Shown here: positions 29,585 through 32,537 of the stretch, in pieces
How positions within the stretch are numbered: the stretch's first letter is position 1
How the letters are laid out: each line of letters opens with the position of its first letter
Made by a program: the position numbers and the translations under genes
Source: an uncultured Bacteriovoracaceae bacterium
GTDB lineage: Bacteria > Bdellovibrionota > Bacteriovoracia > Bacteriovoracales > Bacteriovoracaceae
Assembly (NCBI GenBank): GCA_938034385.1
Contig: CALHLC010000017.1
Span: 1-64,000 of the forward strand
Direction of reading: 5' to 3'
Length of the DNA stretch: 64,000 bases
The notes under the pieces: model-generated
The model's input: only the letters and a program-made list of their open reading frames with translations
Told to the model about the DNA's origin: nothing
Database searches by the model: none

Positions 29585-30142
29585 ATGATGAAGTATGTAC
29601 TTTTATTTTTAAGTCTTTCTGGCTTTTCTTTTGAGATTGGTGATTTAATCTTACAGCCTCTTCATTGCAGTTTGTGTACTGCTATTGAAAACGAGACTGA
29701 TAGTATTTACTCACATATTGGGATTGTTATTAGCAAAAATCCAATCTTAGTTGCTGAGGCATTTGAAAAAGTAAGAGTCGTCTCTTTAGAAAAATTTTTA
29801 AGCAAAACACAAAGAAATCAAAATGTTAAAATATTAAGAAACTCTGAGATGAGAAAAGTGAATAAGTATTTATTTGTACAAGATTTTCAAACAATCTTTC
29901 TAGGTCTTTCTTATGATTCTGAATTTCTATGGTCTAGTGATAAGATTTATTGCTCTGAGCTGATCTATAAACTTCTCAACCTTTATGGTATCTCTCAACC
30001 TCGTCCTGAAGTAATGAGCTTTTCTAAGGCCCATACATTTTGGGATAAATATTACAAGGGTAATATCCCTGTTCAGGAACTGGGTATATCTCCAGCAGAT
30101 TATGATGAAAGTCCATATTTTAGAGAAGTGATAAGACTTTAA
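29585..30142 (+). CDS. Exported YiiX/YebB-like permuted NlpC/P60 cysteine hydrolase
   Basis: The 185-residue protein has a signal-peptide-like start (MMKYVLLFLSLSGFSF) followed by EIGDLILQPLHCSLCTAIE, the usual opening of YiiX-like proteins. The active-site pieces are His in YSHIGIV and Cys in IYCSELIYKLL, in the permuted papain-like (DUF830) order. Members hydrolyse amide or acyl bonds; the substrate is unknown, and a cell-wall or lipid target would be inference. It follows nhaC by 8 bases and overlaps by 4 bases the end of the convergent kinase-like gene. Confidence 0.85.
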   Translation: MMKYVLLFLSLSGFSFEIGDLILQPLHCSLCTAIENETDSIYSHIGIVISKNPILVAEAFEKVRVVSLEKFLSKTQRNQNVKILRNSEMRKVNKYLFVQDFQTIFLGLSYDSEFLWSSDKIYCSELIYKLLNLYGISQPRPEVMSFSKAHTFWDKYYKGNIPVQELGISPADYDESPYFREVIRL

Positions 30143-30981
30143 GAGTTCTTTGCTTTTTCAACCTTTTCAAAAAAATCGTTAAATCTTGCAAGCAAACTTC
30201 TAATTTCAGATTGATCGAGGATAAATTGTAACTCTCTTTTTAACTTATTAAAATTTAAGTTTTTGAGATGTTGATATATCTGAATGGCTTCTGGCTTTTC
30301 AAGGAAAATGTTTATGTTCCCATCAAAATGTTGATGTTTATATGTAGTATGGAAACTAAATCCATTATCTATGAGAGCAAGGTTTCCATCTTCATTCATT
30401 AGAAAATTCCCTCGATTATATCTATCCTTATTAGCAATAAGAGAATCAAATAGCACCATTTTGAAGTAATCAGTTCTATTTGTTTCCTGTACGAGTTTAT
30501 TTTGAGGAGTATAATTCCTGACGAAGTATTGCAATGATCCTTTTTTGAATGTTTTATAATTAAAAACTGTAACAGGAACTAAACCAAAACCTAGGAACCT
30601 ATCAACAATGTAAGCTGCAACTTCTTTATTGGCTGATGATGCTTTGTGTGAAATTTCAGGTTTCCATATTGCTGAAATTGTTTTTGAAATCGTTAATTTA
30701 TAACTTTTAGTAACTCCACGAGAGATTTCTTCAGACTTTAATGAAGAAATGGAGATATTTGATAAAATCTCTTCTATTTGTCCATCAATGACTGACCCGT
30801 CTTTATTCAATTTATATAAATTAGAGGCATCTTTAAAAGGAGTTTTTGAGAGTTTTTCAAGTTGAACTAGTTCATGCTCAAGGTTTATTCGAGGTTTTAA
30901 ATGTTTAATACAAGCATCAATTAAATTGGCGTTAGAATTTATACTCCAAAAGATGATAAAAATGAGTGAGAAAACCTTCAT
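30139..30981 (-). CDS. Exported kinase-like protein (PI3/4-kinase-like / SCO1664-type fold)
   Basis: The 280-residue protein has a signal peptide (MKVFSLIFIIFWSINSNA). The rest fits the atypical kinase pattern of the SCO1664/PI3-4-kinase-like group: Lys107 in IWKPE (ATP-binding), Glu120 in NKEVAAYIVDRFLGFGLVPVT, Asp186 and Asn192 in NKDRYNRGNFL (catalytic loop), and Asp205 in LIDNGFSFH (metal site). All expected catalytic residues are present, so activity is plausible, but in the periplasm or outside the cell, where ATP is scarce. No Shine-Dalgarno; TAAAAT lies exactly six bases before the ATG. Substrate unknown. Confidence 0.72.
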   Translation of the reverse strand: MKVFSLIFIIFWSINSNANLIDACIKHLKPRINLEHELVQLEKLSKTPFKDASNLYKLNKDGSVIDGQIEEILSNISISSLKSEEISRGVTKSYKLTISKTISAIWKPEISHKASSANKEVAAYIVDRFLGFGLVPVTVFNYKTFKKGSLQYFVRNYTPQNKLVQETNRTDYFKMVLFDSLIANKDRYNRGNFLMNEDGNLALIDNGFSFHTTYKHQHFDGNINIFLEKPEAIQIYQHLKNLNFNKLKRELQFILDQSEIRSLLARFNDFFEKVEKAKNS

Positions 30982-31193: not shown

Positions 31194-32537
31194 ATGAAGT
31201 ACCTTATATTATTTTTTTTATCATTGAATATTTTTGCAAATCTTGACTTGGCACCTCCCTCATTTGCTCTTGAAGATGGGAAGAAAGCTGTCTTTATTGA
31301 TATGATTTCTAATGATTCTCAATTTCATTTCAAACCTGGATATCTGGAAGTTGAAACTAAGTTTGTTTTCAAAACACAAGAAACAGGCTTTGCTCTTTTT
31401 GACCTTGTAAATGAATTGGATTCTATTTCTTTAAATGGTGAAAAAGTTGCTCAAAAATTAGTTAACCTTCCAGGGAAGGATGTTCCGATGAGGATGATTT
31501 TGTCTTCGGTTGAAAAAGATCTTGAACATACTGTAGAGATTAAATTTAAATTTTATCCAAGTAAACAAAGACCTGAATTAAATTTTGATAGAAATAAAAA
31601 AAGATTATCATTTTATTTTAAATTTTGCGATGGAAAGGGAGTAAGACAACTTTTAGAGAGCTACCTCCCTTCAAATCTACAATATGATCAATTTAAATTA
31701 AACTTGAAAGTACTCTTTGCACCTGAGTTTGCAAATCAAGTCATTATAGCAAATGGTGATGTGACAAAGATAAGTAAGTTTGAATATGATGTTAATTTCC
31801 CTGAGTTTTATAACCCAGGAAGTTTTTATTTCCAAACAGTACATAAAAGTCAAGATATTGATGTTTTCAATTACAAGGGAATTAAGTTCACTCTTTTGTA
31901 TGCGAAATCTAATAAGGTTCTGAATAAGGATGTTTTCTTTGTGTCTGCTATTAAAGATAAAATTGATAAACTAGAACAATTATTTGGGGCTTTTCCTCAC
32001 AGAGAAATGATTATCTATTTTGGTGAGAATTTTTCAGGTATAGAGCACTTTGGTGCAACAAGAACCTCAAGGTACTCTCTGGGTCATGAGTTGTTTCATA
32101 TGTATTTTGGAAGGGCAGCGATGCCTTCTGATGGACGTTGTGCTTGGATTGACGAAGGACTTGCTAGATGGGCCGATGGTGGGTCCTGGAAGAAATGGGT
32201 TTCTTCTATGTTTACAAGAAAGAGCTATATACCTTTTGATAAGCATGAGGTTTTAAATGAAAAATTTGTTGGTCTCAAAGGACAATCGCCTTACCAAAGA
32301 CAAACTTATAACCTAGAAACGTTGCACCTAGATCCTTATGAACAAGGTCGATACTTTTTTTCTCATATTCATCATTTAATGTCTGACAAAATTTTTGACT
32401 TCTTAGAGTATTTCCACAAAAAATATTTTAAGAAACTTTATACTCAAGAGTTATTTTTTGAAGAATTAGTTGATTTTAATGAAGACGAAGAAACTAAAAA
32501 AGTTATAAGAAGGTTAGAGGAACGATATTTTAAATAA
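31194..32537 (+). CDS. Exported gluzincin metalloprotease (M1-like)
   Basis: The 447-residue protein has a signal peptide (MKYLILFFLSLNIFA). An N-terminal beta-rich domain of about 200 residues is followed by a catalytic domain with His298-Glu299-Leu-Phe-His302 (GHELFHMYFGR) and Glu321 in WIDEGLARW, the HExxH-18-E spacing of gluzincins such as M1 aminopeptidases. The protein is about half the length of classical M1 enzymes and lacks the GAMEN-type exopeptidase motif as far as I can see, so it may be an endopeptidase or a distinct subfamily. No Shine-Dalgarno is seen before the ATG. An imperfect terminator hairpin follows. Confidence 0.82.
   Translation: MKYLILFFLSLNIFANLDLAPPSFALEDGKKAVFIDMISNDSQFHFKPGYLEVETKFVFKTQETGFALFDLVNELDSISLNGEKVAQKLVNLPGKDVPMRMILSSVEKDLEHTVEIKFKFYPSKQRPELNFDRNKKRLSFYFKFCDGKGVRQLLESYLPSNLQYDQFKLNLKVLFAPEFANQVIIANGDVTKISKFEYDVNFPEFYNPGSFYFQTVHKSQDIDVFNYKGIKFTLLYAKSNKVLNKDVFFVSAIKDKIDKLEQLFGAFPHREMIIYFGENFSGIEHFGATRTSRYSLGHELFHMYFGRAAMPSDGRCAWIDEGLARWADGGSWKKWVSSMFTRKSYIPFDKHEVLNEKFVGLKGQSPYQRQTYNLETLHLDPYEQGRYFFSHIHHLMSDKIFDFLEYFHKKYFKKLYTQELFFEELVDFNEDEETKKVIRRLEERYFK

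Follow-up and report, generated by a model that had tools for sequence, protein, structure and literature searches.

A putative Sec-exported kinase of a Bacteriovoracaceae bacterium belongs to a divergent kinase-fold family recurring across Bdellovibrionota

Introduction

Can a protein that leaves the cytoplasm still act as a kinase, and on which molecules would it act? This question is raised by an open reading frame in a 64,000-nucleotide stretch of DNA from an uncultured Bacteriovoracaceae bacterium (contig CALHLC010000017.1 of assembly GCA_938034385.1), the whole of which is hereafter called the window. The frame (30139..30981, (-) strand, stop codon included) starts with ATG and encodes 280 amino acids, and its product had been predicted, from the sequence, to be an exported kinase-like protein with all catalytic residues in place, possibly at work in a predator-like cell. 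The lineage agrees with the last point: the window belongs to Bacteriovoracaceae and a relative of the protein is found in Bacteriovorax sp. DB6_IX, and on the strength of this kinship the organism is presumably a predator. The fold itself is not new, and public libraries already contain the domain, but in the open-access literature we found no description of exported kinases of Bdellovibrio or Bacteriovorax, and the exported kinase family in Bdellovibrionota is without description there.

Results

Kinase fold and catalytic residues

The open reading frame is a real gene. It stands alone on its own strand at the locus, its GC3 resembles that of the adjoining genes, and its GC content (0.297 vs 0.322 for the window) gives no sign of a recent transfer. 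The product is matched by PF00454 (PI3_PI4_kinase) with 38 bits (gathering cut-off 27.1; E 2.3e-9), as are 13 of the 15 members of the family alignment A1 at E < 0.01. An AlphaFold2 model, for which 19 relatives were included in the input, displayed a mean pLDDT of 79.4 and a pTM of 0.74, with a core of ~90; in blocks of ten residues the pLDDT is 75-95 from residue 71 onward and low upstream of it, and the N-terminus is rendered as a long helix. Based on the model, confident from ~residue 70, and on the alignments A1 and A3 (15 members and 20 sequences, respectively), the kinase domain is placed at ~residues 66-280 (30142..30786, (-) strand). Foldseek ranked PI4KII-alpha first (E 1.9e-8), followed by FAM20A/C, PI3K, CtkA of Helicobacter pylori and HipA, with modest TM-scores (mostly 0.3-0.6), and a profile of the exported-kinase family retrieved, by sequence alone, PI4KII-alpha (E 6.5e-13) and FAM20C (E 1.1e-9). 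The kinase-like fold of the original prediction, which had proposed a comparison with PI4-kinase, FAM20C and HipA folds, is well supported by these models, and the closest solved structures are those of PI4KII and FAM20.

The residues that had been singled out as catalytic (K107, E120, D186, N192 and D205) were checked one by one and their numbering is exact, as is that of R187. All of them are encoded on the (-) strand. K107, in the motif AIWKP (30661..30663), is the predicted ATP-binding lysine and is invariant; E120 (30622..30624), the glutamate predicted to form the salt bridge from the alpha-C helix, does not vary in A3, and 54 of 55 bacterial family domains have an acidic residue (E or D) at its position. 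The catalytic loop D186-R-Y-N-R-G-N192 (30406..30426) exceeds the usual DRHxxN by one residue, and its D186, R187 and N192 are the same throughout A3. D205 (30367..30369), in the motif IDNG that is the equivalent of DFG, is the predicted metal-binding aspartate; it is invariant in A3, and 52 of 55 bacterial family domains share it. The catalytic-loop histidine of most members is a tyrosine in the window kinase, and this position is variable across the family. A chance origin of the predicted catalytic pattern is excluded, since K107, E120, D186, R187, N192, I204 and D205 are the only invariant columns among the 20 sequences of A3, phage relatives included.

Among the bacterial family domains that could be aligned, the complete set of five residues is found in 47 of 54, or in 50 of 54 if an E to D replacement is allowed, one of the exceptions being the third, degenerate domain of a triple-domain protein. 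It is well supported that the predicted catalytic set of the window kinase is complete; a pseudokinase, considered as an alternative, is unsupported at the level of the family. The best reading is an exported phosphotransferase that would be enzymatically competent. The triple-domain protein (L116:4449-9434, (+) strand) is an exported chain of 1662 residues with three tandem kinase units, the third of which is without catalytic residues (KEGSN), and it may possibly combine active and pseudokinase units. Two kinase domains (~residues 549-774 and 1373-1615) are present in a 1639-residue open reading frame of another locus (L110, (-) strand), in which no signal peptide was seen.

The window kinase shares features with several known systems. 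PI4K type II (PF00454) is the top match for both fold and profile, and displays the K, the DRxxxxN and the metal Asp in the same order; unlike it, the window kinase is exported and bacterial, has Tyr for the catalytic-loop His, and the identity between the two is 16-19%. Phosphatidylinositol is an unlikely substrate, since its synthesis is not known from most Gram-negative prey, and a protein or a glycan would be likelier. The FAM20 secretory-pathway kinases (FAM20A/B/C), second best in fold and profile, act outside the cytosol, and the window kinase likewise enters an export pathway according to a rule-based scan; nevertheless, it stays below the Pfam Fam20C cut-off (18.6 vs 26.8 bits), and the secretory pathway of FAM20 is supplied with ATP, whereas the bacterial periplasm is not. 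SCO1664 (TIGR03843) weakly matches 15 of the 15 members of A1, but the window kinase reaches 53 bits against a cut-off of 172.4, and in a sample of 58 genomes of the phylum no match was above that cut-off. HipA/HipA_2 and CtkA of H. pylori share the bacterial kinase fold and were retrieved by Foldseek; in contrast to HipA_2 proper, the window kinase scores 15.5 bits where the cut-off is 27, and no HipB-type regulator or antitoxin lies beside it, both adjoining genes (YiiX and M1-like) being on the opposite strand. Membership of the SCO1664, HipA and FAM20 families was rejected, the window kinase being below every curated cut-off. A homologous domain with the same invariant residues is found in phage MuF and multi-domain proteins (PHROG 3162), where, unlike in the window kinase, it forms part of fusions with virion or other phage proteins; the polyvalent-protein kinase group is reported to be Ser/Thr/Tyr-kinase-like (PMC5512222).

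Export signal and lone cysteine

The N-terminus of the window kinase, MKVFSLIFIIFWSINSNA/NLIDAC, comprises a charged two-residue n-region with Lys, a hydrophobic core, a polar c-region and an S-N-A/N site. This is the n/h/c pattern of a Sec signal peptide, as originally predicted, and a rule-based scan locates the predicted signal peptide at residues 1-18 (MKVFSLIFIIFWSINSNA/N; 30928..30981, (-) strand), with signal peptides conserved in the relatives; the presence of a Sec export signal is well supported on these grounds. The scan was home-made and used in a strict and a looser version, and the baseline consisted of the other open reading frames of at least 200 residues from the same loci as the kinase relatives. 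With the strict rule a signal peptide was called in 27 of 38 complete kinase frames vs 78 of 238 others (Fisher p 9e-6, a value that is indicative only, given a home-made rule and statistically dependent relatives); the looser rule raised the former count to 31 of 38, and several of the remaining ones look exported by eye. A stronger argument than the p-value comes from the type of signal. Both signal peptidase I (SPI) and lipoprotein signals occur among the relatives, clear lipobox signals in the four short members L132-L135 and SPI sites in most others, and because the type switches at the same place, export itself appears to be under selection.

The sole cysteine of the protein, Cys24 (30910..30912, (-) strand), lies six residues past the predicted cleavage site. 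By hand count, a cysteine within ~10 residues of the mature N-terminus is found in 10 of 11 short stand-alone SPI members vs 13 of 116 other SPI frames, counts which were made post hoc, after the pattern had been spotted, and are not a prior test. In an oxidising compartment a lone cysteine could mediate a disulfide dimer or a tether. A cysteine near the signal-peptide site, often the only one of the mature protein, was seen in the window kinase (C24) and in the relatives at L105, L124, L128, L129, L136, L140 and L142.

Genomic context

The gene is flanked by two genes for exported proteins: a YiiX/C92 papain-like amidase (29585..30142, (+) strand; PF05708, E 3e-18), which is convergent with the kinase gene and overlaps it by 4 bp, and an M1-peptidase-like protein (31194..32537, (+) strand; PF01433, E 2e-6), which is divergent from it. 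Both belong to the core of the genus, being present in 4 of 4 genomes, and the kinase does not, so that its neighbourhood is probably accidental and both neighbours are probably outside the system. A functional pair with either of them was rejected on this basis, the kinase having no orthologs in the other genomes of the genus, and the link to the YiiX-type neighbour implied by the original prediction was not supported. The window genome has a second M1-peptidase-like paralog (G000:C46:1309-2286, (-) strand), and at least two are found per genome across the genus. When the neighbours of the kinase were clustered over ~40 loci, no recurrent partner gene was found, so the family has no linked gene for an antitoxin, for immunity or for delivery. 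An operon or a toxin-antitoxin pair was also considered and rejected, the kinase being alone on its strand and without a recurrent partner.

A profile search found no match for the kinase in the congeners G066 and G067, and the congener G068 harbors just one copy, 28% identical and on a different contig, while the conserved blocks on the YiiX side and on the M1-like side are both present there, on two contigs. With the kinase absent or non-orthologous in all three while its flanks are core, the gene is, on this comparison, accessory and placed in a variable slot between core genes. At the slot of the kinase in G068, a 912-residue open reading frame, whose N-terminus resembles a signal peptide and which matches no Pfam family, adjoins YiiX (L102:1582-4320, (+) strand).

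Distribution and evolution of the family

A search of the genome contigs with the window kinase as a single protein gave no match, because the family is so divergent. With a family profile, relatives were retrieved from Bacteriovoracaceae, Bdellovibrionales, Bacteriovorax sp. DB6_IX and Bacteriovorax sp. MedPE-SWde. Members of the family were found in 64 of 325 Bdellovibrionota genomes (47 of 165 genera), and within the taxonomic family of the window in 22 of 129; a set of 14 well-known control genomes gave no PF00454 match above the cut-off. An intact exported kinase had been thought unusual; on the contrary, with relatives in this many genomes, mostly exported and catalytically complete, it is a recurring feature of the phylum and not the oddity of one gene. 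Being missing from most genomes of the taxonomic family, it would be dispensable for predation as such.

The terminal branches of the kinase tree are long, with a median of 1.1 changes per site, and few of its deep forks are resolved; on its well-supported branches the label of the taxonomic family f1 must change three times or more. Such a pattern is compatible with gene transfer, duplication and rapid divergence, with long-branch effects as a real risk. Judged from the tree and the distribution, the family is very divergent, polyphyletic and effector-like in its evolution. The orthologs of the window gene itself are too distant for an estimate of selection, and the closest ortholog group available is that of genus g52 in family f3, whose proteins have ~735-769 residues with the kinase at the C-terminal end and an N-terminal signal peptide in 2 of 2 checked (L111 and L112). 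The dN/dS of the closest pair is ~0.1 in both regions (0.040/0.43 and 0.064/0.53), which indicates that these orthologs are under purifying selection. L111 and L112 (genomes G142 and G147) are exported proteins of ~750-770 residues, and orthologs of them occur in several genomes of one genus.

Related domains are also found in viruses. In proteins encoded on IMG/VR contigs the kinase domain is joined, in L031, to domains of the phage portal and MuF types and, in L037, to a Zeta_toxin and a nucleotidyltransferase domain, whereas a tblastn search of an annotated phage collection gave no kinase match. In the latter locus (L037:225-5678, (+) strand) a single protein of 1818 residues combines Zeta_toxin, a cytidylyltransferase-like domain and the kinase domain. 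MuF fusions are viewed as likely injected effectors (PMC5512222), and the predicted kinase domain thus also occurs in proteins that are presumed to be delivered. The phage domains form a branch of their own in the kinase tree, and for this reason they do not show that the window gene descends from a phage.

Discussion

The reading that we prefer, with a probability of about one half, is that the window protein is a Sec-exported, competent phosphotransferase of kinase fold, released by SPI, which would act on a substrate of the prey or of the predator-prey interface with ATP of the prey, and that it belongs to an accessory, fast-evolving, effector-like family. The kinase would be exported by Sec and released by signal peptidase I, and would then work outside the predator cytoplasm, during prey invasion or growth in the bdelloplast, where prey-derived ATP would reach it and where it would phosphorylate a molecule, protein or glycan, of the prey or of the interface. 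In this scheme the phosphate transfer, the source of ATP, the delivery into prey and the type of substrate are putative elements. The periplasm of the predator should lack ATP, which counts against this explanation, as do the absence of the kinase family from most genomes of Bacteriovoracaceae and the altered catalytic loop, one residue longer and with Tyr for His. Sec components are up-regulated in Bdellovibrio predation, a response that was read as secretion of enzymes into the prey (PMC2797640).

An exported kinase might instead modify the envelope of the predator itself (LPS, peptidoglycan or periplasmic proteins), in the manner of FAM20 and with ATP from lysed or leaky prey. We regard this as unlikely but worth serious attention: several relatives are predicted lipoproteins, which would stay on the predator envelope, and there is no conserved delivery partner, although the patchy distribution and the high divergence resemble effectors more than housekeeping proteins. 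It is rather improbable that the exported protein merely binds its ligands without transferring phosphate, or that its kinase fold serves a different chemistry, for instance AMP transfer or glutamylation. There is precedent for kinase folds that catalyse other reactions (PMC10870513; PMC7948968), and the third unit of the L116 protein is degenerate; however, nearly all members retain the full set of ATP- and metal-binding residues, which disfavours a pseudoenzyme while being compatible with an alternative transfer chemistry.

The long N-terminal helix of the AlphaFold2 model and the sequence kinship with the HipA_2 and SCO1664 families would both suit a cytoplasmic or inner-membrane-anchored kinase of the SCO1664/HipA type, with the helix as anchor and the kinase facing inward, but the short Lys n-region, the polar c-region with its SNA/N site and the independent SPI and lipobox signals at the same place in relatives make this arrangement very unlikely. 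Equally doubtful is a polymorphic-toxin-like or prophage-derived cargo kinase directed at rival bacteria and not at prey, for although related domains occur in phage portal-MuF and multi-domain proteins, these domains branch apart, no immunity or mobile-element gene recurs beside the kinase and the GC content of the gene is close to that of the window.

Beyond the single gene, we put forward, more tentatively than the preferred reading itself, that an undescribed, phylum-wide and rapidly diversifying group of Sec-exported kinases modifies molecules of the prey or of the bdelloplast with prey ATP, as a counterpart of FAM20 and of the effector kinases of pathogens, tethered in some members by a lipobox cysteine and perhaps in others by the lone cysteine. 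If active, these proteins would be a bacterial kinase family built for a compartment without ATP of its own, for which predation would be a natural source. Whether Bdellovibrio-like predators phosphorylate prey molecules during invasion thereby becomes a testable question and, with exported relatives in Bacteriovorax sp. DB6_IX and the conserved ~750-residue members of genus g52 in family f3, which come from single-contig genomes, a predator that can be cultivated may be available for it. Taken at this strength, the finding suggests that kinases are put to use by these predators on their prey or within it.
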